64,000 nt of DNA, taken from an uncultured Rhodospirillaceae bacterium. GTDB lineage: Bacteria > Pseudomonadota > Alphaproteobacteria > Rhodospirillales > Magnetospirillaceae. A program made the translations under genes and the position numbers. The stretch is taken from contig CAJANL010000099.1 in NCBI GenBank assembly GCA_903941105.1, positions 1 through 64,000 of the forward strand. Direction: 5' to 3'. Positions 15,700 to 48,325 of the stretch are shown here, one piece after another. The notes beneath the pieces were generated by a model that did not search any database, was not told the DNA's origin, and worked only from the letters and a program-made list of their open reading frames with translations. Each line of letters opens with the position of its first letter. Within the stretch, counting starts at the first letter, position 1.

Positions 15700-15840
15700 G
15701 ATCGCCCCCGCAGTTCGATGCCGCGGACTATTAGCATGGATCGCCATGGCCCGCTTACGTTTTCCAGGCGGGGCGGGCGGTTGCGCTCCCCCGGGATGCG
15801 CCGTATGGTGGCGCCCGTCATCCGCCATCGAGGGTTCACG

Positions 15841-16464: not shown

Positions 16465-17015
16465 CCACACGCCCCACCACCGCAGCGGAATTCCTGGCAC
16501 TCGACTATCGGGTGTCCATTTCCGAGACCGGCGGACGCTTCCATCTGCATGTGCCGCAGCTCGGCCTGATCGTCGACGACGCCGACCTTGCCACCGCCTG
16601 GGCCAATCTTTCCGCGGCGAAACGCGACTATTTCAAACGCCATGCCGCCATCGGCCGCCTTGACGCCATCCCCTTGCCCGCCGGGGATGCTCCCCGCGCC
16701 CTGGCCCTCGCCGTCGCACCATTCGCGGCCAAGGTCGGCATCGCGGCATTGGCGGTGGTGTGCCTGCTGCTGGCGGGGATCGCCGGCTTCGACCATGTGG
16801 TGCGCTCGCTGCCGGGGCGCCTGCTGCATCAGTTCACCGAGGTGTCGACGTCGGCGAAAGTGATGTCCCGCCAGATTTCGCCGGAACGCCTCGATCAGGC
16901 CAAGTCCGAGCTGCGGACCATGGTGGAGATGATAAAGCCGTTTGCCGACGAGCTGCGTCCCCTGTTCGCCGATCCCGCCTGCGGGCCGGCTCAGCCGCGG
17001 CAGACCTCCAGGTAG
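16461..17015 (+). CDS. Hypothetical single-pass membrane protein
   Basis: ORF with one hydrophobic segment (VGIAALAVVCLLLAGIAGF), ATGA overlap with upstream CDS. Confidence 0.65.
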   Translation: MTTRPTTAAEFLALDYRVSISETGGRFHLHVPQLGLIVDDADLATAWANLSAAKRDYFKRHAAIGRLDAIPLPAGDAPRALALAVAPFAAKVGIAALAVVCLLLAGIAGFDHVVRSLPGRLLHQFTEVSTSAKVMSRQISPERLDQAKSELRTMVEMIKPFADELRPLFADPACGPAQPRQTSR

Positions 17016-18544: not shown

Positions 18545-19237
18545 ATGGACTTCGATGAACATGCTGCGGACTATTTAGCCACAGTCCGGCGTAGCGTGGC
18601 TTTCTCCGGACAGGACGGCGCATTCTTCGCGCAAGTGAAGGCCGACGTCATCGTCGAGCTGACCGCCGGCATTCTTGGTCATCCCTCCGAACTCGCGGCG
18701 CTGGACGTAGGCTGCGGCGTCGGACTGCTCACCGGCCTGGTGGCGCCGGCGTTCCGTGCCATCTCGGGATCGGATGTCTCGGCCAAGTCGCTGGCGCTGG
18801 CGGCGGAGCAGGTGCCGTCGGCCGAGTTTCGCGCCGGCTCGGGCACGGCCCTGCCCTTCGCCGATGACAGCTTCGACGTGGTCTACGCCGTCTGCGTCTT
18901 TCATCATGTGGAGATGGGCGACCGCGAGGCCCTGGCGCGAGAGATGGCGCGGGTGGCGAGGCCGGGCGGGCTGGTGATGATCCTCGAACACAATCCATGG
19001 AATCCGCTCGCCCGATGGGTGGTCAGCCGGTGCCCGCTGGATCGCGATGCGCGCCTGCTGTCGGCGGGGGTGGCCGAGACGCTGCTGCGGCGGGCGTCGC
19101 TGCGGCCGGTGGCGCGCCGCTACGTCGCGCTGTTGCCCCTCGGCGCCGGCTGGGCCAGGGGTGTCGAACGAACCTTGGCAGGCCTGCCGCTCGGTGCGCA
19201 ATATGCGGTGGCCGCAGTCAAGGGAAAGCCGGCATGA
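18545..19237 (+). CDS. Class I SAM-dependent methyltransferase
   Basis: ALDVGCGVGLLTGLVAPAFRAISGSDVSAKSL...LPFADDSFDVVYAVCVFHHV. Confidence 0.88.
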   Translation: MDFDEHAADYLATVRRSVAFSGQDGAFFAQVKADVIVELTAGILGHPSELAALDVGCGVGLLTGLVAPAFRAISGSDVSAKSLALAAEQVPSAEFRAGSGTALPFADDSFDVVYAVCVFHHVEMGDREALAREMARVARPGGLVMILEHNPWNPLARWVVSRCPLDRDARLLSAGVAETLLRRASLRPVARRYVALLPLGAGWARGVERTLAGLPLGAQYAVAAVKGKPA

Positions 19238-20307
19238 CCGCCCGTCCGAGTTTCAATGTCTGGAAGAACCGCCGGGTTCTGGTGACCGGCCACACCGGCT
19301 TCAAGGGTGGCTGGCTGGCGGCCTGGCTCGGCCTGCTCGGCGCCGAGGTCTCGGGATTCGCCCTGGCCCCCGACACCGATCCGAACCTGTTCGGGGTTCT
19401 CGGCCTCGACCGCAGGATGCGCTCGATCCTGGGCGATGTCAGGGACGCCGAAGCCCTCGCCCACGCGGTGGCCGAGACGCGGCCCGAAGTGGTGTTCCAT
19501 CTGGCGGCACAGCCGCTGGTGCGCCGCTCGTACCGCTGCCCGTCGGCGACCTTTGCCGTCAACGTCCAAGGTACCGTCAACCTGCTCGAAGCGATCCGCG
19601 CCCAGCCGTCGGTCAAGGCGGTGCTGGTGGTCACCAGCGACAAGGTCTACGCCAACGACGAGCTCGGGCGCCCCTTCCGCGAGGGCGATCCCCTGGGCGG
19701 CCACGACCCCTACAGCGCCAGCAAGGCCTGCGCCGAGATCGTCTGCGCCAGCTGGCGCGATTCCTTCCTGGCCGAGGCCGGCATCCTGTTGGCCAGCGCG
19801 CGGGCCGGCAACGTCATCGGCGGCGGTGATTGGTCGGAGGACCGTCTGGTTCCCGACATCGCCCGGACCATCGGCAGCGGCCGTCCGGTGGTGCTGCGCA
19901 ATCCCGATTCGGTGCGGCCGTGGCAACACGTGCTCGATGCGACGCAGGGCTACCTCAATCTGGCCGCCCGCCTCCTGGACGGCGACCGGTCCGCCGCGCG
20001 CGGCTGGAACTTCGGGCCTGGTGCCGGCCTGGTGCCGGTTCGCGAGGTCGCGAACACCATGATCGCCGCCTGGGGGCAGGGATCGTCCATCGCCCTGCCG
20101 CAGGAAGGCGCCCCCCATGAGGCCGCCCTGCTGATGCTGGACAGCTCCGAGGCCGGCCGGGCGCTGGGCTGGATGCCGGTTCTGTCCATCACCGAGGCGC
20201 TGCACTGGACCGCCGAGTGGTACCGTGCCCACGCCGCCGAGCCGGCGCACGCCGCCGCCCTGACCCAGGAACAGCTTCAACGCATGATGGACCGCCTGTC
20301 GTCATGA
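19234..20307 (+). CDS. rfbG: CDP-glucose 4,6-dehydratase
   Basis: FNVWKNRRVLVTGHTGFKGGWLAAWLGLLGAEVSGFALAPDTDPNLF; DKVYAN; GDPLGGHDPYSASKACAE; GNVIGGGDWSEDRLVPD. Confidence 0.93.
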   Translation: MTARPSFNVWKNRRVLVTGHTGFKGGWLAAWLGLLGAEVSGFALAPDTDPNLFGVLGLDRRMRSILGDVRDAEALAHAVAETRPEVVFHLAAQPLVRRSYRCPSATFAVNVQGTVNLLEAIRAQPSVKAVLVVTSDKVYANDELGRPFREGDPLGGHDPYSASKACAEIVCASWRDSFLAEAGILLASARAGNVIGGGDWSEDRLVPDIARTIGSGRPVVLRNPDSVRPWQHVLDATQGYLNLAARLLDGDRSAARGWNFGPGAGLVPVREVANTMIAAWGQGSSIALPQEGAPHEAALLMLDSSEAGRALGWMPVLSITEALHWTAEWYRAHAAEPAHAAALTQEQLQRMMDRLSS

Positions 20308-21323
20308 CCGCCACCGCCCTCCCTCCGCGGCCCCTGATCTCGGTGATCGTCCCCGTCTACGATGAGGAGGACAACGTCGTCGCCTGCTACGAGGCCGTGA
20401 CGGCCGTGCTGGCGACGGTCGCCGACCGCTACGACTGGGAATTCGTCTTCACCGACAACCACAGGAGCGACCGGACCTTCGAGCTTCTCGCCGAGCTGGC
20501 GGTGCGCGACCGCCGCGTCAGGGTGTTCCGCTTCTCGCGCAATTTCGGCTTCCAGCGTTCGATCATGACCGGCTACCTGATGGCGCGCGGTGACGCGGCG
20601 GTGCAGCTCGACTGTGACCTCCAGGACCCGCCGGCGATGATTCTCGACTTCCTGGCGCGCTGGGAGGAGGGCTTCAAGGTCGTCTACGGCATCCGCCGCT
20701 CCCGCCCCGAGGCGGCGTGGCTGCGGGGCGCCCGGCGGATGTTCTATCGCCTCGTCGACACCCTGAGCGAACAGCCGCTGCCGCACGATGCCGGCGATTT
20801 CCGGCTGGTGGACCGCCGGGTGATCGACGAACTGCGTCACCACCACGACATGCACCCCTATCTGCGCGGCATGATCGCCGGCATGGGCTTCGCCCAGACC
20901 GGCATCCCCTACGACCGCGAGGCGCGACGGGGCGGCCGCAGCAAGTTCAACCTGTTCTCGCTGAGCCTACTGGCCCTCGACGGCATCGTCGGCCAGTCGC
21001 ACCAGCCGCTGCGGGTGGCCAGCTATATCGGGGTGGGGGCGGGGGCCTTGGCGGTCGTCACCGCCCTGGTGCTGGTGTTCGAGAAACTGTTCCTGGGTGC
21101 CAGCTGGCCGTCCGGGTGGGCGTTCCTGGTGGTGCTGGTGCTGGCCTCGTTGGCGATCAACGCCTTCCTGCTCGGAATCATCGGCGAGTATATCGGCCGC
21201 ACCTACAGCCAGGTACGGCCGCAGCCGCTCACCATCATCGAGAACGCCATCGACGCGGCCACCGTGGCCGACGGAGGCACCCCCCCGAAGCGGGTGACCT
21301 TCGGCAGTGGAGGAGAGGCATGA
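20304..21323 (+). CDS. Glycosyltransferase family 2 (GtrB/DPM1-like, C-terminal two TM helices)
   Basis: LISVIVPVYDEEDNVV; DCDLQDPPAMILDFL; DAGDFRLVDRRV; C-terminal hydrophobic pair then NAFLLGIIGEYIGRTYSQVR. Confidence 0.92.
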   Translation: MTATALPPRPLISVIVPVYDEEDNVVACYEAVTAVLATVADRYDWEFVFTDNHRSDRTFELLAELAVRDRRVRVFRFSRNFGFQRSIMTGYLMARGDAAVQLDCDLQDPPAMILDFLARWEEGFKVVYGIRRSRPEAAWLRGARRMFYRLVDTLSEQPLPHDAGDFRLVDRRVIDELRHHHDMHPYLRGMIAGMGFAQTGIPYDREARRGGRSKFNLFSLSLLALDGIVGQSHQPLRVASYIGVGAGALAVVTALVLVFEKLFLGASWPSGWAFLVVLVLASLAINAFLLGIIGEYIGRTYSQVRPQPLTIIENAIDAATVADGGTPPKRVTFGSGGEA

Positions 21324-29789: not shown

Positions 29790-30806
29790 TCATTCGCTTC
29801 CAGACATCGGCACCTGACGGTCGCGGGTCAGCCAGGCGATGCCGCCGATCAGGGCGGCGATCAGCCCGAAGCCTCGGAAGGTGAGGAAAATGGTCGCGAA
29901 GGGGGCCTGCCCGTCCGGCGCCAGCAGGCGACAGATTTGGGCGAAAGCGCCTTCGCCGACACCCAAGCCCCCCGGGGTCAACGGCACCTGATTGGCGAGG
30001 ATGGCCAGCGGGGTGGCAAGGGCATAATCCAGCGCTCCGACCCCCTGGGCGGCGAAGATCGACGCGGTGACGATCACCGCCGCAATGGTGAAGGCCTGGC
30101 CCATGATGGAAATCACCATGCCGCCCGCCAGGGTCGGCAGGGCATGGCGGAACAGGGCGACGTCCTTGGCGGCGGCGGCGAAAAGGCCGCGGAGCCGCCC
30201 CAGCCGGCCGGTGGCCTCAGGCACTCCCGCCAGCGCGGAGCGGCCGAGGAACAACATCAGGCCGGCGACCGCCGCCAGGCCGGCGACCGTCACCACCAAT
30301 ACCGCCAGGCCGTATTGCTGCAGGATCGGCGGCAGGGAGCCGGCCGCCATCTGCCAGACGAACACGCCAAGGGCCACGACCAGCAGTCCGCCTAAGCCGA
30401 GCAGACGGTCGATCAGCAAGGTGGCCGCGGCCGTCACCCCGCGACCGGGAGCGGCCTTGGCGACATAAAACAGCCGCACCACATCGCCGCCGACGCCCCC
30501 CGGCAGGAAGACGCCGCTGAAGACGCCGATGGCCACCAGCCGGCAAACGAACGCGAACGGCAGGCGCACCCCCACCACCCCCAACAGCATCCGCCAGCGC
30601 CAGGCGACCAGCGGCAGCGGCAACAGCAGGACGAGAACCACCAGCCCGGCCCGACCGGGCGCATCGGCCATCCGCGCCGGCAAATCGGCGGACAGGCTCT
30701 CGCCCCGGACCAGCCAGACGACGAGCGCCGCGGCAATCGCCGCCTTGAGACTGAGGACGAGGCGCCCTCGCCAGACCCGCCTGTCGGGTTCGGGCGACGC
30801 CGCCAC
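29790..30806 (-). CDS. Lysylphosphatidylglycerol synthase TM region/UPF0104-like flippase family membrane protein
   Basis: Multi-TM; GVFLPGGVGGDVVRLFYVAKAAPGRGVTAAATLLIDRLLGL; NQVPLTPGGLGVGEGAF typical motifs. Confidence 0.87.
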   Translation of the reverse strand: MAASPEPDRRVWRGRLVLSLKAAIAAALVVWLVRGESLSADLPARMADAPGRAGLVVLVLLLPLPLVAWRWRMLLGVVGVRLPFAFVCRLVAIGVFSGVFLPGGVGGDVVRLFYVAKAAPGRGVTAAATLLIDRLLGLGGLLVVALGVFVWQMAAGSLPPILQQYGLAVLVVTVAGLAAVAGLMLFLGRSALAGVPEATGRLGRLRGLFAAAAKDVALFRHALPTLAGGMVISIMGQAFTIAAVIVTASIFAAQGVGALDYALATPLAILANQVPLTPGGLGVGEGAFAQICRLLAPDGQAPFATIFLTFRGFGLIAALIGGIAWLTRDRQVPMSGSE

Positions 30807-30810
30807 CGCC

Positions 30811-32334
30811 CTAGGCCTCCCCGTTCAGACCCGTCGCCGGGGCGCGCAGCCCCGCCATTCCCGCCTGCCCCTTCCGCTTGCCCCCGGCTTGCAGATAGCG
30901 AAGGCTGCGCCAGACATGGGTCACGATGCTCTTGAGGTCGCGGGGGCGTGCGCCTGGGAAAATGCGGGTTGCCAGCATGTAGGAGAAGAACAGGGAGCCC
31001 CAGAACTTATAGAGGTAATCCAGCGGCAGCCGGATCAGTACCTTCAGGACCGGGATCATGAAATCCGGCAACAGGCAGAACAAGGTGCCGAGATGGGCTA
31101 GGCGCACCTGCATGCGCTTTTCCTCAGCGGTGAAATTGGTCAGAACGGACTGCTCCCATCCCGACACCGTATTGTAGTCGAAGTCTGCCGGCAGGGCGCC
31201 CAGCTCGATGGCCTGCTTGGTGAGGTCGGTGTTGGGGAACGGGCAGAATATGCTGAAGGTGGGAACGGCGGCCTTCGCCTTCTTGGCGAACAGAAAGCTG
31301 TCCCAATCGTCCTGGAATGTGGTTCCCGGCAAGGCCAGGATGCTGTTCGCGAAGGCGTTCAGGCCGTATTGCCGGGCATGATCGAAGGCCGACAACACCA
31401 TCTCGTCCGGCATGTTGCGCTTCATGATTTCGTTGCGCACCCGGGAGGTCCCCGCCTCGATGGACATGGCGATGGAGACGCATCCGGCGTGCTGTAGCAG
31501 GCGCGCCACCGGCTCGGTCAGGGCATTGCAGCGGATGAGGCAATAGAACGGAATGCCGATTTCCTTGCGATAACGCTCGGCGAATTCGTGCAGCCATTCG
31601 TCCTCGTGAATGACGAAGACATCGTCGCCGAAACGCAATACCCGCGCGGTGGGATAGCGCTCAACCACGCCGCGGATTTCGGTGAGAAGATTGTCCACCG
31701 ACCGGCGGCGGATCAATTTGCGCCCCTCGCCCTTGAACATACGGTTGTACGCGTGGTTGAAGCAGTAGGTGCACTTGTGCGGGCAGCCGCGCTGGGTCAT
31801 GAACGAGCGGATGCCATGCTTGAGCATGTCGGGGGCGCGGTCGTAGAGGAGGTCTCGGTCGGCGAAGGCAATCGAATCCATGTCCTCGACCACCTCCTTG
31901 ATGAAGTCCGAGGCACCGGCGGGGACCACATTGGGGATGCCCGTCAACGGGCGCCCCTCCGCCAGGGCGTCGAGAATGCGCAGGATGGCGCGGTCGCCGT
32001 CGCCGCAGCAGATGGCATCCAGGCCGAAGTTCGTGAGCACGTCGGGGAAGTAGGTGGGATGGGGGCCGCCCATGACCCGCACCAGTCGCCGGCCGCGCTG
32101 CGCCGCCCAGGCCTGGGCGACCCGGTCGGCGTCGGCGAACAGGTGCTCGTCGGGGGTCATGGCGCTATAGGCCAGCAGGTCGGGCTCGAACGCGTCGAGA
32201 TCCGCCGCCATGTCGCCGCCCTTCAACACGGACAGGCGGGTGACGTGCCCGGCCGCCTTGCATACGGCACTGAGGATCATCGCGCCGAGCGGCTCGCTGA
32301 AGAACAGGTCGGACACGACAAACAGCACCTTCAT
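30811..32334 (-). CDS. B12-binding domain radical SAM protein
   Basis: MKVLFVVSDLFFSEPLGAMILSAVCKAAGH; MGGPHPTYFPDVL; TQRGCPHKCTYCFNH. Confidence 0.92.
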   Translation of the reverse strand: MKVLFVVSDLFFSEPLGAMILSAVCKAAGHVTRLSVLKGGDMAADLDAFEPDLLAYSAMTPDEHLFADADRVAQAWAAQRGRRLVRVMGGPHPTYFPDVLTNFGLDAICCGDGDRAILRILDALAEGRPLTGIPNVVPAGASDFIKEVVEDMDSIAFADRDLLYDRAPDMLKHGIRSFMTQRGCPHKCTYCFNHAYNRMFKGEGRKLIRRRSVDNLLTEIRGVVERYPTARVLRFGDDVFVIHEDEWLHEFAERYRKEIGIPFYCLIRCNALTEPVARLLQHAGCVSIAMSIEAGTSRVRNEIMKRNMPDEMVLSAFDHARQYGLNAFANSILALPGTTFQDDWDSFLFAKKAKAAVPTFSIFCPFPNTDLTKQAIELGALPADFDYNTVSGWEQSVLTNFTAEEKRMQVRLAHLGTLFCLLPDFMIPVLKVLIRLPLDYLYKFWGSLFFSYMLATRIFPGARPRDLKSIVTHVWRSLRYLQAGGKRKGQAGMAGLRAPATGLNGEA

Positions 32335-33479
32335 GTCGAACTCCTGATCGGTCCTCTCGCAACGGCCGGCTGACCCGTCACGACTCTCGCCAACGTCCGG
32401 AAATAGGCTTGTGGATTGAGAACGAAATTATTGATCTGAGCGCATTCGAATGTGCACCAGCATCGGTTGTCGCCGACGAATTCGCGAATCGCACCGGCCC
32501 GCGGGCTGTTGAGCATTCCATCCAGGTCGAAGTCCCACTCCCGCAGGTTGCCCAGACTGAAGTCGCCCAATTCCGGGGCGTCGGTCAGCCCCTGGCTGGC
32601 CAAGACCTTGAGGATTTCGCACGGCAGGACATTAGCCCGCTCGTCGATGATCAACAGCTTCTTGCCGGCCAGGCAGGGGTCGGCCATGCGTTGTTGCCGC
32701 AGGGTGTCGATCCGGCTCTGGGTGAGCTGATCGACGATCGCCTCGCCGACCCGGGCATCGGTCCTGGCCATGCGGCGGAGCAACAGCATGTTCTCGATGA
32801 ACAGGTCGGTGGTGCCGGCCTCACCCTCGGGGGAACGGACCTCGCCACGGGCGAGCATCAGGCCGTGCGCGGCAATGCTCATGTTGTCGCGTACCCATTC
32901 GAGCAGCGCCGGAACCTCGTGGCTGTTGCTGACGGTGATGACGCTGGCGGTGGCGAGGAACAGCCGAGGATTGTCCCGCTGCCGGTCGCGGACGGCGCCG
33001 TAGCTCTCCTGCAGGCGCGCGAAGCTGCCGGGAACGCCGCGGATGCGGTCATGGGTTTCGCCGATCCCGTCGATGGACATGTTGATGGACAGGATGAGGT
33101 CGGGACAGCTCACCGACACCCGGTCCACCAATGCGGCGATACGGTCGGGGTAATAACCGTTGGTGGGAATGGTGATCCGCCGCACCCCCGCCCGCCGGTA
33201 GAAGATCTCGATGATGTCGGCAAGGTCCTGGCGGAGGGTCGGCTCACCCCCGGTCAGGGTCAGTTGATAGAGATCGGGAAGACGATCGGCCATGCGCTCG
33301 ATCTCTTCCAGGGACCATTCCTCGCTCCGCTTGAGGGTGTTCAAGCTTCGCCAAAGGAAACACATATTGCAGCGCTGATTGCAGTGCGACGTCACATAAA
33401 GAACAACGTACCAGGGCTTCGAACTGAGCGCCCTGCGCAATAGCGACACTGGACGAACCTGGGCGAGCAGACTGCTCAT
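32331..33479 (-). CDS. Radical SAM protein (MoaA/SPASM-like)
   Basis: LYVTSHCNQRCNMCFLWRSLN; LTLTGGEPTLRQDLADII; C-terminal cysteines (ANVLPCEIL, NRCWCTFEC). Confidence 0.9.
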   Translation of the reverse strand: MSSLLAQVRPVSLLRRALSSKPWYVVLYVTSHCNQRCNMCFLWRSLNTLKRSEEWSLEEIERMADRLPDLYQLTLTGGEPTLRQDLADIIEIFYRRAGVRRITIPTNGYYPDRIAALVDRVSVSCPDLILSINMSIDGIGETHDRIRGVPGSFARLQESYGAVRDRQRDNPRLFLATASVITVSNSHEVPALLEWVRDNMSIAAHGLMLARGEVRSPEGEAGTTDLFIENMLLLRRMARTDARVGEAIVDQLTQSRIDTLRQQRMADPCLAGKKLLIIDERANVLPCEILKVLASQGLTDAPELGDFSLGNLREWDFDLDGMLNSPRAGAIREFVGDNRCWCTFECAQINNFVLNPQAYFRTLARVVTGQPAVARGPIRSST

Positions 33480-33834
33480 GAAGACGCCTTCAATTGGTCG
33501 CCGGGCGATGTAAGAGGCTGTTCTGCCGAGCCATTCGGGCGCACGTCATCCTCAAATGCACGGACGCTGAAACCTCCGCGCTGCGGGTGCGCCACATTTG
33601 CACCGCCATGGGGGGGAGCACTACCACGGCCTGCCGATGAAAATCAACATCACCGGATTTAAGGCCCTTCGAACACACGGAGTCAGTCCGCAAATGGTCC
33701 GGCTTCGCAGGTCCAGGACAGCCAGGCACCCCTTGAATTCCCTGGAATCGCCGCCTATAGTGCGCTGCCAAGACGGCTGCGAACCACACAGCCCTCGGGC
33801 AATTTTTCTACTCTGGCTGGTCGGCATTCTGCTC

Positions 33835-34866
33835 ATGAATCTGCTGGTTACTGGTGGCGCCGGCTTTATCGGCTCGAATTTCGTCCGCTATTGGACGGAG
33901 AAGTTTCCCGAAGACCGGATCACGGTACTGGATGCCTTCACCTATGCCGGGTCCATCGACAACCTGCCCCCCGGCGCCTACGAGGACCTGTGCGGAACGC
34001 TGCGCGTCTGGTACGGCAATGTCTGCAATGCCGAACTGGTGGACTCGCTGGTCGAGGATGCCGACGTGGTGGTGCACTTCGCGGCCGAGACCCATGTCAC
34101 GCGGTCGATCTTCGACAACATGCAGTTCTTCCACACCGACGTCATCGGCACCCAGACGGTTGCCAACGCCATCGTCAAGGCCGGCGACCGGGTAAAGCTG
34201 TTCCTTCACATCTCGACGTCGGAAGTCTACGGCACGGCCTTGGATGCCGCCATGGACGAGGATCACCCCCTCAACCCCATGAGCCCCTACGCCGCCGCGA
34301 AATGCGGTGCCGACCGCTTGGTGTATTCCTATTGGAAGACCTACGGCCTGCCGGCGGTGATCGTGCGCCCGTTCAACAACTACGGCCCCCGCCAGCACCT
34401 GGAAAAGGTGGTGCCACGCTTCGTCACCAGCGTCATCCTGGGCGAGGACATCACGGTGCACGGCGACGGTTCCGCCGCACGCGATTTCATCCATGTGGAC
34501 GACACCTGCCGGGCGCTCGACGCCATCATCAACGCGCCCTCCGAGAAGGTGGTCGGAGACGTGTTCAATCTGGCGTCCGGGGAACACCGGTCCATCGCCG
34601 AGATTGCGCAGGCGATGGTCGAGGAGATGGATTGCGACCCCGCCAAGATCAAATTCATCGGCGATCGCCCGGGCCAGGTGTTCCGCCATACCGGGGATTC
34701 CACCAAGATCCTCGACCGGTTGGGCTGGAAGCCGATCGTGCCGTGGAGCGAGGGGCTGCGAAGCACCATCGACTGGTTCCAGAACAACCGGCCGTGGTGG
34801 GAAAAGCAGATATGGCTGCGTCGCATTCCCATCAAGACGAAATCGGGAAAAGTCGAATTCCATTGA
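33835..34866 (+). CDS. dTDP-glucose 4,6-dehydratase-like NAD-dependent epimerase/dehydratase
   Basis: MNLLVTGGAGFIGSNFVRYWTEKFPEDRITVLDAFTYAGSIDNL; STSEVYG; PMSPYAAAKCGADRLVYSYWKTYGLPAVIVRPFNNYGPRQ. Confidence 0.9.
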   Translation: MNLLVTGGAGFIGSNFVRYWTEKFPEDRITVLDAFTYAGSIDNLPPGAYEDLCGTLRVWYGNVCNAELVDSLVEDADVVVHFAAETHVTRSIFDNMQFFHTDVIGTQTVANAIVKAGDRVKLFLHISTSEVYGTALDAAMDEDHPLNPMSPYAAAKCGADRLVYSYWKTYGLPAVIVRPFNNYGPRQHLEKVVPRFVTSVILGEDITVHGDGSAARDFIHVDDTCRALDAIINAPSEKVVGDVFNLASGEHRSIAEIAQAMVEEMDCDPAKIKFIGDRPGQVFRHTGDSTKILDRLGWKPIVPWSEGLRSTIDWFQNNRPWWEKQIWLRRIPIKTKSGKVEFH

Positions 34867-34901
34867 GCCGAGCCGGTTCGGTTCGTATTTAGGTCGCTGT
34901 C

Positions 34902-35903
34902 ATGTCATTTGCTCGGCTCCAGAAGCATCTTGAGGACGAGGATCGGCGCCGGCAGCTTCTCGAAATCGAGAAGAACCTGGTCGAGCATCCTTTTCCGCCC
35001 CAGTTGGTCATCGAGAACACCTCGTGGTGCAACCTGACCTGCATCCACTGCGCCCACCGCGATCTACAGCGGCCGCACGCCCACATGCCCCGCGCCCTCT
35101 GGGACAAGCTGGTGGAGGAGGTCGGACGCACCTCCCCCGACTGCGAGGTCTGGCCGACCTTCTATGGCGAGGCGCTGCTGCTGGGAAACGAGCTGTGGGA
35201 CCGTCTCGGCCATGCGGCCAGGGTGGGCTGCCGCAATCTGGTGCTCAATTCCAACGGCACCGCGCTGGGCGCCAAGGACAATATCGAGCGGGTGCTGGCC
35301 TCGCCCCTGCGGCGGTTCATCCTCAGCCTCGACGGCCTGTCGCAGGCCAGTTTCGAGAAGATCCGCCGCAAGGCCAAATGGCACAAGGTCTATCCCGCGG
35401 TGGAGGAGCTTTGCCGCCGCCGCCTGGAGCGCGGCATCACCTATCCCACCATCACGGCGCAGTTCTCGGTGATGCCGGACAACGCCCATGAAGTGGAAGA
35501 CTTCCGCGCCTACTGGTCGGCCCTGGGGGCCGAGGTGAAGGTCAGGCCGATGATGGAGTGGACCGCGTCCGGGGCGGTGGCGACGGAGACCATCATCCAC
35601 GGCCACGATTTCCGCATCGCCTGCCCATGGGCCAACAACACCATGGCAATCCATCAGGACGGCCGGGTGGTCACCTGCGCCGTCGATTACGAGGGCTTTT
35701 TCGTCGTCGGCAACGCCAGCGACATGTCCATCGCCGAGGCCTGGCGCCTGCTGCGCGACAAGGTGCGGAGTCCCCATCGGGAGCATCGCTGGGATGATAT
35801 GCCCGAGGTCTGCCGGCGGTGCGGTGACTGGCAGACGGCCGGGGCGCAGTACGAGACCTCGACCGTCGAAGGCACCCGTCCGTTCTGGTTCAGGAATGAG
35901 TGA
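34902..35903 (+). CDS. Radical SAM protein with SPASM-like C-terminus
   Basis: LVIENTSWCNLTCIHCAHRDLQRPHAHMP; CPWANNTMAIHQDGRVVTCAVDYEGFFVVGNASDMSIAEAW; CRRCGDW. Confidence 0.92.
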   Translation: MSFARLQKHLEDEDRRRQLLEIEKNLVEHPFPPQLVIENTSWCNLTCIHCAHRDLQRPHAHMPRALWDKLVEEVGRTSPDCEVWPTFYGEALLLGNELWDRLGHAARVGCRNLVLNSNGTALGAKDNIERVLASPLRRFILSLDGLSQASFEKIRRKAKWHKVYPAVEELCRRRLERGITYPTITAQFSVMPDNAHEVEDFRAYWSALGAEVKVRPMMEWTASGAVATETIIHGHDFRIACPWANNTMAIHQDGRVVTCAVDYEGFFVVGNASDMSIAEAWRLLRDKVRSPHREHRWDDMPEVCRRCGDWQTAGAQYETSTVEGTRPFWFRNE

Positions 35904-36915
35904 GATGACCAAGGCATCGCCGCCGCCCCAGACCTATGCCATGCGATCGGACGCGGCCGATTACCCGATGATGCTGGTGCTGTCCTTCGTGTTTCCGTGC
36001 AATGCCAAATGCCCGCATTGCCCCTACACGAATTCGGACATCCGCAAGGAATATGCCGACATGCCCTTCATGCCGGCCGAGACCTTTCGCAAGATCGCCG
36101 ACGAATCGGGGCCGCATGGCGCCTTCCTGCGCATCTCGGGCGGCGGCGAACCCATGCTGCATCCCGAGGCGGTGGAGCTGTTTCTCTACGCCAAGGCCCG
36201 GGGCTGCCGCGTCGGCCTGATCACCAACGGCTCGAAATTCGATGCCGACAACAGCCGCGCCCTGATCGAGGCCGGCATCGACATGATCGAATTCTCCGTC
36301 GATGCCTCGACGGCGGAGGGCTATGCCGTGGCGCGGGCCGGGCTGGAGTGGGACACCCTGCTCACCAACGTCCGCCGCATGATCCAGTTGCGCAAGGCCG
36401 GCAACAGCACGACCAAGATCGTGGCGTCGGCGGTCCATCAGGCCGGCGTCGACATCGACGAAGTCGAGCGGTTCTGGGTCGAGGATATCGGCGTCGACTA
36501 TGTCATCAAGCGCAAGTTCCTCACCTGGGGCATCAACACCAATCTCGACGGCGCCCGTTCGGGCGATCCCGGCGCCTATCTCGACACCGAGGTCGAACCC
36601 TGCCCGTTCCTGTTCGAGCGCCTGAACATCGACACGCGCGGCAATATCATGGTGTGCGGCTACGACATCTCGGCCAATACCGAGATGGGCAACTGCAACA
36701 GTCAGAACATCAGCGAGATCTGGCACGGGCCGGGCTTCGAGTGGTACCGCGGGATGCATCTCAAGGGGAAGGGCAAGGATATTCCCCTGTGCGCCGGTTG
36801 CCCCGATTGGCAATATCGCTCGTGGCATCACAACTACTGGAAAGTGGTGGCCAATGCCGAGGAAGCACGTCAGCGCAAGCTGACCGGCGTGCCCGCCCGA
36901 CTGGAAGAGCAATGA
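35896..36915 (+). CDS. Radical SAM protein with SPASM-like C-terminus
   Basis: LVLSFVFPCNAKCPHCPYTNSDIRKEYADMPFMP; ISGGGEPMLHPEAVELF; CPFLFERLNIDTRGNIMVCGYDIS...CAGCPDW. Confidence 0.93.
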   Translation: MSEMTKASPPPQTYAMRSDAADYPMMLVLSFVFPCNAKCPHCPYTNSDIRKEYADMPFMPAETFRKIADESGPHGAFLRISGGGEPMLHPEAVELFLYAKARGCRVGLITNGSKFDADNSRALIEAGIDMIEFSVDASTAEGYAVARAGLEWDTLLTNVRRMIQLRKAGNSTTKIVASAVHQAGVDIDEVERFWVEDIGVDYVIKRKFLTWGINTNLDGARSGDPGAYLDTEVEPCPFLFERLNIDTRGNIMVCGYDISANTEMGNCNSQNISEIWHGPGFEWYRGMHLKGKGKDIPLCAGCPDWQYRSWHHNYWKVVANAEEARQRKLTGVPARLEEQ

Positions 36916-37262
36916 GCCTCAAGATCTCCGGCCGCCTGTTTTCCGGCCCCTATCCGCTGGCCACCACGGCACTGAACAAGCGGCGCCCCCCCGTCGTCTT
37001 CGTCATCATCAGCAAGGAGGGGGTGCCGTGGAACCCGACCTTCCGCGTCCTCGACTGCGGTGACGGCGGCGAGGACGGGATCGACTTCGCGGCGCATCCC
37101 GACCGCCCCGCCTGGGAGAGCGCCGCCGAGGGGGCGGTGGGGGTCTATCTGCTGGAAATGCCGCGCGACCAGGCGAGCGTCGACGACCGGAGCGCCGTGG
37201 TCGCCGAGTTGCGGCAGCGCTATTCCCCGCCTCACGGCAGTGTCGCCATCTCGGGAATCTGA
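36912..37262 (+). CDS. Small hypothetical protein (116 aa), possibly a divergent GIY-YIG-like fold
   Basis: ATGA overlap with upstream radical SAM; FSGPYPLATTALNKRRPPVVFVIISKEG...FRVLDCGDGGEDGID...VVAELRQRYSPPHG. Confidence 0.7.
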   Translation: MSLKISGRLFSGPYPLATTALNKRRPPVVFVIISKEGVPWNPTFRVLDCGDGGEDGIDFAAHPDRPAWESAAEGAVGVYLLEMPRDQASVDDRSAVVAELRQRYSPPHGSVAISGI

Positions 37263-37289
37263 GCAACCCTGACCGACATGAGGGGCTGA

Positions 37290-39170
37290 ATGTGCGGGAT
37301 CTGCGGCTATATGGGCGATGGCCCGCCCGCCCTTCAGGCGATGAATGCCACCCTTGTCCACCGCGGTCCCGATGATGACGGCCATGTCGACCGCCCGCCT
37401 TGCCATCTGGCCATGCGGCGCCTGGCCATCGTCGACGTGGATGCCGGGCAACAGCCGGTCGCCAACGAGGACCAGACCGTCCTCGCGGTCTTCAACGGCG
37501 AGATCTACAACCACGTCGAGCTGCGTCAGCGGCTTCAATCGCGTGGCCACGTCTTCCGCTCCCACCACAGCGACAGCGAGACCATAGTCCACCTCTATGA
37601 GGAATACGGCGACGACTGGCCCGAAGCCGGCGGTGTCAACGGCATGTTCGCGGTCGCCCTGTGGGATTCCCGGCGCGGCCGGCTGCTGCTCTACCGCGAC
37701 CGCCTCGGCAAGAAGCCGCTTTACTATGCCGAGGCCGGTACGGCCCTGATCTTCGCCAGCGAGCAAAAGGCGATCCTGGCGCATCCGGCTGTGTCCCGCG
37801 ACGTGGACCACGGCAGCCTCTATCACTACTTCTCGCTCAAGAACGTCGGCGCCCCGGGCAGCGCCTGGGCCGCCATACGGCAACTACCGCCCGGCCACCT
37901 GATGATCCGCGAGAACGGCCGGACGGCGGTGCGGCCTTATTGGCGCCCCACCTTCGCGCCGGTTCTGCCCGACATCACCCCCGACGAAGCCGCCCGCGAA
38001 ATCCTGCGCCTGCTGGACGATGCGGTGCGGCTGCGCATGCGGTGCGACGCCGCCTATGGCGCCTATCTGTCGGGCGGAGTGGATTCCTCGGCGGTCGTCA
38101 CCCTGATGGCCCGCCACACCGACAAGCCCATCCAGACCTTCTGCCTCGGCTACGAGGACGGGCCGGGGGAGCAACTGGCGGCCAAGGCGCAGGATATCGC
38201 CATGGCCCGCGAGGTCGCCCGCCGCCTGGGAACCGAGCACCGCGAGCACATCATCCGCCCGGTCGACTTCATCGAGGCCATGCCGGCGGTCATGGCGAGT
38301 TTCGACGCGCCCTATTCGGGCACCATTTCGACCTTCTTCCTGTCCAGCGTCATGAAGCGCCACATCAAGGTCGCCCTGTCGGGAGACGGTGCCGATGAAC
38401 TGTTCGGCAGCTACCTGGCTCATCGGTTGGCATGGCCGATCCACCACTTCCTGCGCCTGCGGCCGACCTCGCTGGAGGCCCTGAGCGATGCCGACCGTTC
38501 GCTGCTGCAGCCGTTCGATTTCGCCACCCTGTCGCGGCTGGCGCACCCGTCGCAGGCGCATTGGCGGATGGGCCTTGCCGTCTTCAACGACGCGGAAAAG
38601 TGCCAGCTTCTGACACCGGCCTTCCTGGCGGCCGCCGGGCAGGACGGCACCCGGGCCTATTACGACGGTCTGGAGCGCGGCGCCACCGCCCTCGACCCGC
38701 TCAACGCCGTGCTGGAGATGGACCAGCGCGAGCTTCTCGCCAATCAGGTGCTGCCATTCATGGACCGGCTGTCCATGGCGCATTCGGTGGAGGTCCGCTC
38801 TCCCTTTCTCGACCACCGCATCGTCGACTTCGTCAACCGCCTGCCCGGCTCGATGAAGATCCACAATGGCATCACCAAATACGTCCACCGCCTCGCCATG
38901 GAGCCGCTGCTGCCTCGCGAGATCCTCGACCGCCCCAAGGAAGGCTTCGTTCAACCGGTCTATTCCTGGATGCGGACCTCCCTGCGCCCCTGGCTGGAGG
39001 CGCTGCTGGCGCCCGAGCGGGTCCGGCGGCACGGGTTCCTGAGGACGGAGGGCGTGGCCGCCGTTCTTGCGGCCCATCTGGCGGCCGAACCGGGCAGCGA
39101 TGCCAAGATCTGGAATTTGGCGTGCTTTCAGGTCTGGTGCGACACCGTCCTCGGCGGAGGCGGCCCGTGA
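37290..39170 (+). CDS. asnB: Asparagine synthase (glutamine-hydrolysing)
   Basis: MCGICGYMGDG N-terminal Cys nucleophile; LVHRGPDDDGH; AYLSGGVDSSAVVTLMA; LSGDGADELFGSY. Confidence 0.96.
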   Translation: MCGICGYMGDGPPALQAMNATLVHRGPDDDGHVDRPPCHLAMRRLAIVDVDAGQQPVANEDQTVLAVFNGEIYNHVELRQRLQSRGHVFRSHHSDSETIVHLYEEYGDDWPEAGGVNGMFAVALWDSRRGRLLLYRDRLGKKPLYYAEAGTALIFASEQKAILAHPAVSRDVDHGSLYHYFSLKNVGAPGSAWAAIRQLPPGHLMIRENGRTAVRPYWRPTFAPVLPDITPDEAAREILRLLDDAVRLRMRCDAAYGAYLSGGVDSSAVVTLMARHTDKPIQTFCLGYEDGPGEQLAAKAQDIAMAREVARRLGTEHREHIIRPVDFIEAMPAVMASFDAPYSGTISTFFLSSVMKRHIKVALSGDGADELFGSYLAHRLAWPIHHFLRLRPTSLEALSDADRSLLQPFDFATLSRLAHPSQAHWRMGLAVFNDAEKCQLLTPAFLAAAGQDGTRAYYDGLERGATALDPLNAVLEMDQRELLANQVLPFMDRLSMAHSVEVRSPFLDHRIVDFVNRLPGSMKIHNGITKYVHRLAMEPLLPREILDRPKEGFVQPVYSWMRTSLRPWLEALLAPERVRRHGFLRTEGVAAVLAAHLAAEPGSDAKIWNLACFQVWCDTVLGGGGP

Positions 39171-39991
39171 CCGGCATCGTGCTGTTCGCCGGCGGCGAGG
39201 CCGGCCGCATCGCCGCCGAGAGGCTGGCCGCAATGGCACCATGCTGCCTGTCGGCCATGGTGTGGGATCACCAGACCGGACCGGCGCCCGAGATCGAAGG
39301 GATCGGCCTCGTCGATGAAGAGCGGGCGGCGGATTGCGGCGACACCCTGTTCTGCTCCGGTTACGGCAGCATCATCGGGCCGACGGTTCTCGCCCATTTC
39401 GGGGCCAGGGCGTTCAACGCCCATCCATCGCTGCTTCCCGCCTATCGCGGCCGGCATGCCATCCAGTGGGCGATCGCCAAGGGTGAGGCCGTGATGGGCG
39501 TCACCATCCATCGCCTGACCAGCGCCATCGACCACGGCGAGATCCTCGCCCAGGAGGCATGGGAGTTCGGCGCCGAGACCTCGCTGCCGCAGGTCGCCGC
39601 GTGTCTGGCCTCGGTCGCCGCCACCATGCTGTGCGATCTGGCCGCCGCACTGGCGCGAGGGGAGGAGCCGGCCGCCCGCCAGACCCCGGCGGCGCTTCCC
39701 TATTGGCGCCGTCGTCGCGCCTCGGACAGTGCCGTCGACTGGGCCGCTCCGGCCGCCGCCATCATCAATCAGGTAAGGGCCGGAGGGCCGGGCTACTGGG
39801 CCAAGGCCCGCCGCCGCGACGGCAGCGAGGTTCGGTTTCTGGCCCACAAGGCGGGCGGTGCTCCCGGCACCGTCCTGCTGTCCACGCCGCAGGGATGCCT
39901 GGTCAGCACCGTCACCGGGGTCGTCTGGCTGGTTCCCGACCGTCCGCTGATCGAAGGCGAAGTCCTTGGCGACGGAGACGCAACCGCATGA
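39167..39991 (+). CDS. Formyltransferase family protein (Fmt/ArnA-N-like)
   Basis: AFNAHPSLLPAYRGRHAIQWAIAKGEAVMGVTIHRLTSAIDHGEILAQ; Fmt C-terminal-like DWAAPAAAIINQVRAGGPG. Confidence 0.87.
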   Translation: MTGIVLFAGGEAGRIAAERLAAMAPCCLSAMVWDHQTGPAPEIEGIGLVDEERAADCGDTLFCSGYGSIIGPTVLAHFGARAFNAHPSLLPAYRGRHAIQWAIAKGEAVMGVTIHRLTSAIDHGEILAQEAWEFGAETSLPQVAACLASVAATMLCDLAAALARGEEPAARQTPAALPYWRRRRASDSAVDWAAPAAAIINQVRAGGPGYWAKARRRDGSEVRFLAHKAGGAPGTVLLSTPQGCLVSTVTGVVWLVPDRPLIEGEVLGDGDATA

Positions 39992-40692
39992 CCACGGTCG
40001 TCATCCTCCAGCCCAGCTACCTGCCGTGGCTGGGATTCTTCGACCAGTTCGACCGAAGCGACGTGTTCGTCTTCTACGACGACGTTCAATTCGACAAGAA
40101 CGGATGGCGCAATCGCAATCGCATCAAGGGGCCGATGGGGGCCACCTGGCTGACGGTGCCGGTGCGGCAGTCGGGCCGGGCCGGCCAGGCCATCATGGAC
40201 GTCGAGATCGACCAATCCCGCCCGTGGGCGGTCAAGCATCTGCGATCGCTACGGCAGTTCTATGCCCGCAGTCCGTTCCTCGGCCGCTATATGGACGGGA
40301 TCGAGGAGGTCCTGTGCCGCCCGTGGTCGAGGCTGGTCGACCTGGACATCGAGCTTTCGCTACGCCTGTGCGGCATGATCGGTCTCGACCGCGAGGTCCA
40401 CCGGGCATCCGCGCTCGGCATCGGCGGCGACCGCAGCAGCCGCCTCGTCAACATCTGCCGCCATTTCGGCGCCACGCGCTACCTGTCGGGCATGGCCGCC
40501 ATCTCCTATCTGCAAGGCGATCTGTTCGCCGAGGCCGGCATCGAGATCCAGTTCCAGGATTATCTCCACCCGGTCTACCCGCAGCAGTTCGGCGAGTTCG
40601 TCAGCCATCTGGCCGTCGTCGACCTGCTGTTCAATGCCGGCCCCGACGCACTTCGCCTGATCCGCGCCGGGGCAGCCGCATTACCGGGATGA
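39988..40692 (+). CDS. WbqC-like family protein
   Basis: TTVVILQPSYLPWLGFFDQFDRSDVFVFYDDVQFDKNGWRNRNRIKGPMGATWLTVPV; YLSGMAAISYL; FQDYLHPVYPQ. Confidence 0.92.
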   Translation: MTTVVILQPSYLPWLGFFDQFDRSDVFVFYDDVQFDKNGWRNRNRIKGPMGATWLTVPVRQSGRAGQAIMDVEIDQSRPWAVKHLRSLRQFYARSPFLGRYMDGIEEVLCRPWSRLVDLDIELSLRLCGMIGLDREVHRASALGIGGDRSSRLVNICRHFGATRYLSGMAAISYLQGDLFAEAGIEIQFQDYLHPVYPQQFGEFVSHLAVVDLLFNAGPDALRLIRAGAAALPG

Positions 40693-41436: not shown

Positions 41437-42276
41437 ATGAACAATCATGGCCACCCCTTCGTCAAGATGCACGGGCTGGGGAACGATTTCGTCGTCCTCG
41501 ACGCCCGCGCGCGCGCCGTTCCGCTCAGCCCGTTGCGCATCCGTGCCATCTCGGACCGTCGCACCGGCGTGGGCTGCGACCAGTTGATCGTGGTGGCACC
41601 GCCCACCAGCGCGACCGCCGACGCCGCCATGCTGATCTACAACGCCGACGGCACCGAAGTCGGGGCCTGCGGCAACGCCAGCCGCTGCGTCGCCTGGATG
41701 CTGATGCGCGAGAGAGGCTGCGACCGGGTGGTCATCGAGACCAAGGCCGGCCTGCTCGACGCCGAGAGCCGCGGCCCCAGCCTGGTGGCGGTGGATATGG
41801 GCCGCGCCCGGCTCGACTGGCGCGACATTCCGCTCGCCCGTGCCGCCGATACCCTGCACCTGGACCTCACGGTCGGCACGCTGTCCGATCCGGTTGGCGT
41901 CAGCATGGGCAATCCGCACGCCGTGTTCTTCGTCGACGATGCCGAGGCGGTCGACTTGGCGGCGTTGGGGCCGGTGCTCGAACACCACCCCCTGTTCCCC
42001 GAGCGCGCCAATATCGAGGTGGCGGAAGTCCTGTCGCGCGAGCGCATCCGCATGCGGGTGTGGGAACGCGGCTCCGGCATCACCATGGCCTGCGGCACCG
42101 GCGCCTGCGCCACGCTGGTGGCGGCGGCGCGGCGCGGTCTGACCGGACGCAAGGCCGAGATCGTGCTGGATGGCGGCATGCTGGCCATCGAATGGCTGCC
42201 CGACGACCACGTGCTGATGACCGGGCCGGTGGCGATGAGCTTCGCGGGGGAGTTCGATCCTTCGCTGTTCCCATGA
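41437..42276 (+). CDS. dapF: Diaminopimelate epimerase
   Basis: [54 protein letters not shown]. Confidence 0.97.
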
Positions 42277-43532
42277 GCGAGCCGCACATCCTGACCTTCG
42301 GCTGCCGCCTCAACGCCTATGAATCCGAAGTGATGCGCGCGCACGCCGCCGCCACCGCCTCGGGGGTCGAGACGGTGATCATCAACACCTGCGCCGTCAC
42401 CGCCGAAGCCGAGCGCCAGGCCCGCCAGGCCATCCGCAAGCTCCGCCGCGAGCGTCCCGACGCCCGCATCGTGGTCACCGGCTGCGCCGCCCAGGTTCAC
42501 CCGGAAAAATTCGCCGCCATGGCCGAGGTCGACCAAGTCCTGGGCAATGTCGACAAGATGCAGCCGGATGCCTTCCAGGCGCCGGCTTCCGACCGCCCGG
42601 CTTCCGACCGTATCGTCGTCACCGACATCATGCAGGTGCGCGAGGTGGCCTCGCATCTGGTGTCGGGCTTCGAGGGACGGGCGCGGGCCTTCGTCGAGGT
42701 GCAGCAGGGCTGCGATCACCGCTGCACCTTCTGCATCATCCCGTTCGGCCGCGGCCCCAACCGCTCGGTGCCGGTGGCGCGGGTGGTGGGGCAGGTGCGC
42801 GAGCTGGTGGCCCAGGGCTTCAACGAGGTGGTGCTGACCGGCGTCGATATCACCTCCTATGGCGGCGACCTGCCGGAACGGCCCGGCCTGGGAACCCTGG
42901 TGCGCCGCCTGCTGGCCGAGGTGCCGGAGTTGCCGCGGCTGCGGCTGTCGTCGCTCGACCCGGTGGGCGTGGACGCGGTGCTGCTGGCGGCGGTGGCCGA
43001 GGAGGCGCGGCTGATGCCGCATTTCCATCTCTCGGTGCAGGCCGGCGACGATATGGTCCTGAAGCGCATGAAGCGCCGCCACAGCCGCGACGATGTGCTG
43101 CGGCTGGCCGAGAGACTGCGGGACTTGCGCGGTGACGTGGCATTGGGTGCCGACCTCATCGCCGGCTTCCCCACCGAGGACGACGACATGTTCCGCCAGT
43201 CCCTCGACCTGGTGGACGAGGCCGGCTTCAGCCACCTGCACGTCTTCCCGTTCAGCCCACGCCCCGGCACCCCGGCGGCCCGCATGCCGCAGGTCAACGG
43301 CGCCGTCGCCAAGGAGCGCGCCGCCGTGCTTCGGACTCGCGGCGAGGCGACCATGGCGGCCTTTCTGGCCTCCCGCATCGGACGCGAGGCCCACGTGCTG
43401 GTGGAGGGCGATGGCGAGGGCTTTTGCGAGCACTATCTGCCGGTGACGGTGGCGAACGGCCGCCCCGGAGAGTTGATGACGGTACGAATTGGCGGGGTCG
43501 CGAACGGCCGGCTTGAGGGGCAAAGACCATGA
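42273..43532 (+). CDS. mtaB: tRNA (N6-threonylcarbamoyladenosine(37)-C2)-methylthiotransferase
   Basis: [72 protein letters not shown]. Confidence 0.95.
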
Positions 43533-47242: not shown

Positions 47243-48325
47243 TCAGATCATCAGCCGCACCGGCTGACGCTTGCGGCCCCAGGTGCCGGGCCGGGCCTCG
47301 AACAGCCCGGCGGGCCGGGCGCCGCACGTGCGGCAGCCTCCCTCGGGCGTCAGGTTCCACGCCGTCAGTTCATACCAGTCGCGGCCGATGACAAGGTCCC
47401 CGCAGGCGTGGCACCAGGTGCTGCCGCCGTTGGCATCGTGGACGTTGCCGGTATAGACATGCCTCACCCCGTTGGCCTTGGCGATGGACCGGGCGGAGAC
47501 AAGTGTCGAAGATGCCGTGGGGGGCTTTTCGCGCATCTTCCAGTCGGGGTGGAAGGCAGAAAAATGCAACGGCACGTCGGGGCCGAGAGATTCGACCACC
47601 CACCGGCTGAGTGCATCGATTTCGGCGGCGGAATCGTTCTCTCCCGGAATGATCAAAGTCGTGATTTCGAACCATGTACTCGTGTGATGCTTGAGGTATT
47701 TCAGGGTGTCCAGCACGGCCTCCAGATGCCCGCCGCACAGCCGGTGATAGAAGTCCTCGGTGAATGCCTTCAGGTCGACATTGGCCGCGTCCATATGGGC
47801 GTAGAATTCTTCGCGGGCCTCCGGCGCCATATAGCCGGCGGTGACCGCCACCGTCTTCAGCCCCCGCGCCCGGCAGGCCTTGGCGACGTCGATGGCATAC
47901 TCCAGAAAGATGACCGGATCGTTATAGGTGAAGGCCACCGAACGGCAGCCCAGCTGCACGGCGGCGCGGGCGATGTCGTCGGGAGCGGCGAAGTCGTTGA
48001 GTCGGTCGACCTCGCGCGCCTTCGAGATGTCCCAGTTCTGGCAGAACTTGCAGGTCAGGTTGCAGCCCGCCGTGCCGAATGACAGGACCGGCGTGCCGGG
48101 CAGGAAGTGGTTCAGCGGCTTCTTCTCGATGGGATCGACGCAGAACCCCGACGAGCGGCCGTAGGTGGTCAGCACCATCTGCTCGCCGGAGCGCGCCCGC
48201 ACGAAGCACAAGCCGCGCTGGCCGTCGCCCAGCTTGCAGAAGCGCGGGCAGACGTCGCACTGGATGCGGCCGTCCTCCAACCGATGCCAGTGCCTCCCCG
48301 GGAATTGCGAGCCTTCGACCTGCAT
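47243..48325 (-). CDS. amrS: AmmeMemoRadiSam system radical SAM enzyme
   Basis: RWHRLEDGRIQCDVCPRFCKLGDGQRGLCFVR; LSFGTAGCNLTCKFCQNWDISKA; HFSAFHPDWKM. Confidence 0.95.
   Translation of the reverse strand: MQVEGSQFPGRHWHRLEDGRIQCDVCPRFCKLGDGQRGLCFVRARSGEQMVLTTYGRSSGFCVDPIEKKPLNHFLPGTPVLSFGTAGCNLTCKFCQNWDISKAREVDRLNDFAAPDDIARAAVQLGCRSVAFTYNDPVIFLEYAIDVAKACRARGLKTVAVTAGYMAPEAREEFYAHMDAANVDLKAFTEDFYHRLCGGHLEAVLDTLKYLKHHTSTWFEITTLIIPGENDSAAEIDALSRWVVESLGPDVPLHFSAFHPDWKMREKPPTASSTLVSARSIAKANGVRHVYTGNVHDANGGSTWCHACGDLVIGRDWYELTAWNLTPEGGCRTCGARPAGLFEARPGTWGRKRQPVRLMI

Follow-up and report, generated by a model that had tools for sequence, protein, structure and literature searches.

What do radical S-adenosylmethionine (SAM) enzymes do among genes that appear to build surface glycans? 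The question is raised by a 64,000-nucleotide stretch of DNA (the window; GenBank contig CAJANL010000099.1, contig C99 of a 4.48-Mb draft genome) from an uncultured Rhodospirillaceae bacterium, in which four radical SAM genes, here called rSAM1 to rSAM4, lie among genes for sugar-modifying enzymes between positions 30811 and 40692. A sequence-only reading had treated all four as one surface-modification system. Our analysis points to a differently bounded set of about seven genes, centered on rSAM3 and rSAM4, which is best explained as a horizontally spread cassette that is present in unrelated bacteria. Bacteria with this cassette probably make an undescribed surface sugar through radical chemistry, and on our best reading its product is one activated, rare N-acylated amino-deoxy sugar for a surface polysaccharide or glycolipid.

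The nine open reading frames (ORFs) of the sequence-only reading were found at, or a few bases off, the positions that it gave, and the CX3CX2C motifs are present in the four radical SAM ORFs as it described. Pfam placed a radical SAM domain in all four (the 30811, 32331, 34902, and 35896 ORFs), along with a B12-binding domain in 30811-32334, GDP_Man_Dehyd/Epimerase in the 33835 ORF, Asn_synthase and GATase in the 37290 ORF, Formyl_trans in the 39167 ORF, and WbqC in the 39988 ORF. A Pfam search with the 36912 ORF, which encodes 116 amino acids, gave no family match. From 33835 onward, the plus-strand junctions measure 35, −8, −4, 27, −4, and −4 bp; the earlier description of mostly 4- to 8-bp overlaps holds at four of the six junctions, while the other two are gaps of 35 and 27 bp. 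The genes from 33835 to 40692 are likely a single transcription unit, in the order given below together with an aminotransferase gene that the earlier gene list had overlooked:

33835-34866 (+): nucleoside diphosphate (NDP)-hexose 4,6-dehydratase-like short-chain dehydrogenase/reductase, by its TSEVYG and SPYAAAK motifs and Pfam
34902-35903 (+): rSAM3, Twitch-type radical SAM enzyme, cassette core (CNLTCIHC; C241-x17-C259, C304-x2-C307)
35896-36915 (+): rSAM4, Twitch-type radical SAM enzyme, cassette core (CNAKCPHC; C236-x17-C254, C299-x2-C302)
36912-37262 (+): 116-amino-acid protein, a predicted folded domain (predicted local distance difference test [pLDDT] score, 89.7)
37290-39170 (+): AsnB-like glutamine amidotransferase, with the Cys2 glutaminase and SGGVDS ATP sites intact
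39167-39991 (+): formyltransferase (Formyl_trans) in an exchangeable acyl position
39988-40692 (+): WbqC family protein (PF08889), by Pfam
6811-8019 (−): DegT/PseC/ArnB-like aminotransferase, a cassette member outside the operon, by identity to the aminotransferases of other cassettes

The case for a cassette comes from 22 loci, which were collected in one pattern-based scan of genome contigs with rSAM4 as the sole query; scan E-values are relative to the candidates, and partial contigs are included. Among these loci, the dehydratase and AsnB each occur in 20, rSAM3 in 18, and WbqC and DegT in 17 each. The order rSAM3-rSAM4-AsnB-acyl position-WbqC-dehydratase-DegT is identical in L040, L041, L042, and L046 and recurs with one additional gene in L045. 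The named hosts, mostly metagenome-assembled genomes and given here as binned, comprise alpha-, beta-, gamma-, delta-, and epsilonproteobacteria, Nitrospirae, Nitrospinaceae, and one Melainabacteria contig. The cassette is whole or mostly present in Magnetospirillum sp. SS-4, Methylocapsa acidiphila B2, and Roseomonas genomospecies 6 ATCC 49961. The window's DegT is 64% identical to the aminotransferase within the SS-4 cassette and 63% identical to that of genome G016. SS-4 belongs to the same family as the source organism; its locus L044 is genome G047, just as L046 is G016, and neither pair was counted as an extra witness. Three further genomes have rSAM4, of which one is a copy of L047 and two are new (L063 and L064). 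Both new loci carry rSAM3, rSAM4, AsnB, a GNAT acetyltransferase, WbqC, and DegT, with the dehydratase in one of them. The rSAM4 orthologue is rare: counting the source genome each time, it was found in 2 of the 385 genomes from the class and in 3 of the 399 from the phylum. No cassette copies were found on plasmids in PLSDB at an E-value of 1e-40.

As a control for specificity, we inspected ten loci around distant rSAM4 paralogues (25 to 31% identity). There, rSAM3 was never found, AsnB occurred once, WbqC five times, and DegT-like genes seven times. Because these loci lack the full set, the full cassette appears to be specific, whereas Twitch-like radical SAM enzymes are paired with WbqC more widely. 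The sequence-only reading had expected its genes to be conserved together. For rSAM3 and rSAM4 this is the case, as they keep company with AsnB, WbqC, the dehydratase, and DegT, and the recurrence of the plus-strand set plus DegT across phyla indicates a grouping beyond chance.

The two core radical SAM enzymes share a distinctive arrangement of cysteines. Alignments of 16 rSAM3 and 21 rSAM4 sequences each contain exactly seven invariant cysteines, three in the CX3CX2C motif and four in a C-x17-C plus C-x2-C arrangement, which corresponds to the one-auxiliary-cluster or "Twitch" pattern. Four invariant C-terminal cysteines fall short of the seven or more of two-cluster SPASM enzymes; nevertheless, Pfam SPASM matches the 34902 and 35896 ORFs, and only these. 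Of the three proteins labeled MoaA/SPASM-like earlier, these two keep SPASM as a Pfam match but are Twitch-type by cysteine count. In a profile search of the PDB, BtrN was the top match for both rSAM3 (E 7e-17) and rSAM4 (E 7e-13). The sugar decarboxylase BlsE came second for rSAM4 (E 2e-9) and was weak for rSAM3. That the closest relatives of known structure have an amino-cyclitol (BtrN) and a sugar nucleoside (BlsE) as substrates agrees with the amino sugar system that had been proposed. In hidden Markov model alignments, all four auxiliary cysteines of rSAM3 fall on BtrN cysteines, as do the last three of rSAM4, whose first auxiliary cysteine is not covered by the alignment. In BtrN, four cysteines coordinate a single auxiliary [4Fe-4S] cluster, likely the electron acceptor, and the enzyme oxidizes 2-deoxy-scyllo-inosamine by two electrons (PMC9012708). 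By cluster motif and auxiliary cysteines, rSAM3 and rSAM4 are BtrN-like Twitch-type enzymes, which may, as dehydrogenases, oxidize a carbinol of an amino-cyclitol or sugar by two electrons.

The remaining enzymes suggest what such dehydrogenases may act upon. The closest solved structure to the dehydratase is a TDP-glucose 4,6-dehydratase (1r66; E 3e-72), and its orthologues in 20 of the 22 loci are 58 to 68% identical. It scores 327.3 bits against TIGR01181 (dTDP-glucose 4,6-dehydratase), under the equivalog cutoff of 365.1. Its YxxxK motif is kept, and nearly all orthologues have T-S-E (or S-S-E); the corresponding motif of RmlB is T-D-E. DegT, with its catalytic lysine kept, is PseC-like and also matches the DesI model; its NCBIfam scores lie under the equivalog cutoffs for PseC (334.5 against 423.5 bits), ArnB (307.8 against 631), and LegC (206 against 420). 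The acyl position, located between AsnB and WbqC or close by, holds a formyltransferase in the window, L040, L041, L045, L049, and L057 (the L041 and L045 matches being partial), a GNAT enzyme in L037, L046, L048, L050, L051, L054 (by eye), L063, and L064, and a carbamoyltransferase in L042 and L055. Among these variants, the GNAT enzyme resembles PseH and the formyltransferase resembles ArnA. This exchange, which supports the N-formylation suggested earlier, takes place around a constant core, as if a single amine or hydroxyl were being decorated. With a 4,6-dehydratase, DegT, and an N-acyltransferase that keep their catalytic motifs, the cassette has the predicted makings of an NDP-4-amino-4,6-dideoxyhexose N-acyl pathway.

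The other cassette proteins are less readily placed. Cys2 and SGGxDS of AsnB are kept across loci, with the N-terminal cysteine not found in L051 and L053. The predicted structure of WbqC (pLDDT, 92.7) had no significant match among PDB folds. Assignment to a PanC/nucleotidyltransferase-like HUP fold was rejected on the same grounds; all matches were of low probability, but several were to HUP proteins (USP, PPAT, and TyrRS), which provide a lead. In Magnetospirillum sp. SS-4, a second, divergent WbqC gene (L044:9291-10007; 37% identity, compared with 56% for the cassette copy) lies directly upstream of rSAM4. Distant Twitch-like radical SAM genes also lie beside or near WbqC in glycan loci of relatives (L065, L066, L068, L069, and L072), which suggests that WbqC partners radical SAM enzymes that act on sugars in general. 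One such ORF (L065:8905-10473) is extended by ~220 residues at its N terminus, and a cytidylyltransferase gene is close by, making a CMP-nonulosonate pathway possible at that locus. The 116-amino-acid protein, detected in 6 of the 22 loci as fetched, including that of SS-4, looks in its predicted model like a folded domain, unlike a leader-core peptide. Its placement as a GIY-YIG-like protein was unsupported, with no PDB fold match below an E-value of 0.39.

Co-conservation, catalytic residues, cluster type, and the exchangeable acyl position, all established at the level of sequence, allow a pathway to be proposed. By family membership, the dehydratase would form an NDP-4-keto-6-deoxyhexose, DegT would aminate C4, and the acyl-position enzyme would cap an amine with formyl here and with acetyl or carbamoyl elsewhere. 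Subsequently, rSAM3 and rSAM4 might each attack a C-H bond of the ring and transfer the electron to the auxiliary cluster, converting a carbinol to a ketone that is open to renewed amination, as BtrN does in 2-deoxystreptamine synthesis. AsnB could then add an amide with the help of glutamine, and WbqC could complete or ligate a substituent. We consider it reasonably likely that the radical enzymes modify a building block of the amino-sugar type; the more specific proposal of a BtrN-type oxidation with amination after it is tentative, and we regard it as doubtful. Bolder still, and rather unlikely when taken as one joint claim, is a general radical SAM route to di- or tri-amino deoxysugars of bacterial surface glycans. 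In this scheme, BtrN-like enzymes would re-open hydroxyls on the ring of an amino sugar that is NDP- or lipid-linked, the same aminotransferase would add further amines, formyl, acetyl, and carbamoyl caps would be interchangeable, and WbqC would be a partner for Twitch enzymes that modify sugars more widely.

Several observations weigh against the proposed amino-sugar pathway. The window's cassette has undergone rearrangement, with 27 kb between DegT and the operon. Elsewhere, rSAM3 is only ~31% identical in L049, L050, L052, and L054, and DegT and WbqC were not found within the fetched DNA of L051 and L053. Mirror correlations among cassette members range from 0.03 to 0.84, near zero for the dehydratase and DegT, with species relatedness uncorrected. 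The BtrN matches are remote and partial, covering only the radical SAM core and the auxiliary-cluster region. Furthermore, AsnB requires a carboxylate, and a 6-deoxy amino sugar offers none for it to act upon.

The operon is embedded in a long island of glycan genes, among them genes for a CDP-glucose 4,6-dehydratase and a UDP-sugar dehydrogenase, for glycosyltransferases, and for SGNH proteins; 7 of the 37 radical SAM matches in the draft genome fall inside the window. Divergent from the operon is a minus-strand unit, whose separateness the earlier reading had also overlooked:

29790-30806 (−): LPG_synthase_TM/flippase-like membrane protein (PF03706), a recurrent but non-universal cassette neighbor
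30811-32334 (−): rSAM1, B12-binding radical SAM enzyme, non-core
32331-33479 (−): rSAM2, MoaA-like radical SAM enzyme with a possible Twitch-like cysteine set

Neither radical SAM gene of this unit travels with the cassette. An rSAM2 orthologue occurs in one of the 22 loci (Methylobacter, L045; 63%, next to rSAM3), as does a close relative of B12-binding rSAM1 (Nitrospinaceae; 45%). Among 199 genomes of the order, the best rSAM2 homologue was a single one at 37%, and rSAM1 homologues of 54 to 57% in two other genomes had no cassette genes within short flanks. We therefore rejected the proposal that the four radical SAM genes form one system. The flippase-like PF03706 protein is found in several cassettes as well as the window, and some cassettes have family 2 glycosyltransferases (GT2) like polyprenyl-phosphate sugar synthases, neighbors that agree with export as a lipid-linked sugar. 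The window also has a GT2 protein with C-terminal membrane helices that is GtrB/DPM1-like by eye (20217-21323, +), as well as two large polytopic proteins (14323-15858 and 16991-18454, both −) that matched no Pfam family and are possibly GT-C lipid-linked sugar transferases. The CDP-glucose 4,6-dehydratase (18997-20307, +) scores 447 bits against a cutoff of 278, indicating that the island makes a CDP-deoxysugar too. At 7953-10123 (−) is a separate block of radical SAM, aminotransferase, and acyltransferase genes, in which a second B12-binding radical SAM gene (7953-9485) overlaps both the DegT gene of the cassette and a gene for a hexapeptide acyltransferase (9470-10123). Two more radical SAM proteins outside the cassette, with Pfam radical SAM matches only, resemble by eye an AmmeMemoRadiSam-type enzyme (47243-48325, −) and an MtaB-like methylthiotransferase (42060-43532, +).

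In such a setting, an argument can be made that the locus is an ordinary mixed island for lipopolysaccharide or exopolysaccharide (LPS/EPS), whose neighbors serve different residues and into which radical SAM genes were shuffled independently. The size of the island, the distance to DegT, the minus-strand genes that are not co-conserved, and dehydratase distances that do not mirror those of DegT would all fit. Yet co-linear seven-gene blocks in distant taxa, the same set in independently found genomes, and its absence around the paralogues make this account improbable. A second possibility, that the enzymes mature a ribosomally synthesized peptide or a protein, draws on the majority of characterized SPASM enzymes being peptide-acting and on AsnB homologues in lasso peptide pathways, a model for which is among the NCBIfam matches of AsnB. 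Here, the SPASM-like enzymes would act on the 116-amino-acid protein or an undetected peptide, with AsnB as a lactam- or amide-forming cyclase. However, the L046 cassette is tightly packed (intergenic gaps of 10, 6, 7, −4, 2, and −4), with no gap large enough for a precursor gene, and the 116-amino-acid protein is predicted to be well folded and limited to a minority of loci. On these grounds we rejected a precursor peptide. With a dehydratase, DegT, and an acyltransferase as neighbors and sugar-acting enzymes as best solved relatives, peptide or protein maturation is highly improbable, in keeping with the earlier preference for a sugar over a peptide substrate.

Other radical chemistries on sugars also have to be weighed. 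A DesII-like lyase would remove the amine or hydroxyl beside the abstracted C-H of a TDP-4-amino sugar, and the resulting 3-keto-4-deoxy sugar would be further tailored by the other radical SAM enzyme. DesII acts on TDP-4-amino-4,6-dideoxyglucose and behaves as a dehydrogenase with a changed substrate (PMC11434129), and the likeness of the dehydratase to TDP-glucose 4,6-dehydratase and of DegT to DesI would suit such a route. But DesII has a single cluster (PMC11434129), in contrast to the four invariant auxiliary-cluster cysteines of rSAM3 and rSAM4; no DesII model is among the NCBIfam matches of rSAM3 or the best 25 of rSAM4, and the N-acyltransferases suggest that the amine is retained. We regard the lyase as quite unlikely, and hold a similarly low opinion of radical epimerases like NeoN and HygY, which would invert stereocentres of the sugar or finished glycan. 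Sugars of polysaccharides frequently differ by epimerization. Radical SAM epimerases are known to act on aminoglycosides, but NeoN-type enzymes donate a hydrogen from a cysteine, Cys249 in NeoN (PMC10991966). Beyond the seven ligands, neither rSAM3 nor rSAM4 has an invariant cysteine: C110 is present in 10 of 16 rSAM3 sequences and C104 in about two thirds of rSAM4 sequences.

The reading we prefer, in which radical enzymes tailor an amino-sugar building block, would bring a familiar chemistry into a new setting. Radical SAM chemistry on sugars is known chiefly from antibiotic pathways. In the open-access papers searched, we found no description of radical SAM enzymes alongside WbqC and formyltransferase, O-antigen and asparagine synthase, or capsule, which is a weak absence; a 2025 review of microbial rare sugars leaves radical SAM unmentioned. 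If true, a compact, transferable cassette in LPS/EPS islands extends this chemistry to cell-surface glycan biosynthesis. It would also offer an initial setting in which to assign WbqC (PF08889) and the 116-amino-acid family, and a defined set of genes for which the sugar product can be looked for.

Comparison with known systems shows where the cassette is familiar and where it departs. Plasmid-borne lipooligosaccharide genes of Brachyspira hyodysenteriae likewise include radical SAM genes amid rfb sugar genes; the available part of that account names no AsnB, WbqC, DegT, or formyltransferase and leaves function uncharacterized (PMC4267127). The PseB/PseC/PseH and ArnA/ArnB pathways resemble it in their PseC/ArnB-like aminotransferase, PseH-like GNAT, and ArnA-like formyltransferase, but the cassette proteins score under the equivalog cutoffs, and neither pathway has radical SAM enzymes, AsnB, or WbqC. 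DesIV-DesI-DesII of TDP-desosamine biosynthesis follows the same logic, from 4,6-dehydratase to C4 aminotransferase to a radical SAM enzyme on the amino sugar; DesII, however, has one cluster and deaminates, whereas the cassette combines two auxiliary-cluster enzymes with acylation, AsnB, and WbqC. Finally, BtrN, the 2-deoxy-scyllo-inosamine dehydrogenase of butirosin biosynthesis, is like rSAM3 and rSAM4 in its radical SAM core and auxiliary-cluster cysteines, and its amino-cyclitol substrate is made by an aminotransferase. BtrN is about 60 to 70 residues shorter and belongs to an antibiotic pathway, while the cassette places two radical enzymes, together with AsnB and WbqC, in a nucleotide-sugar and surface glycan setting.

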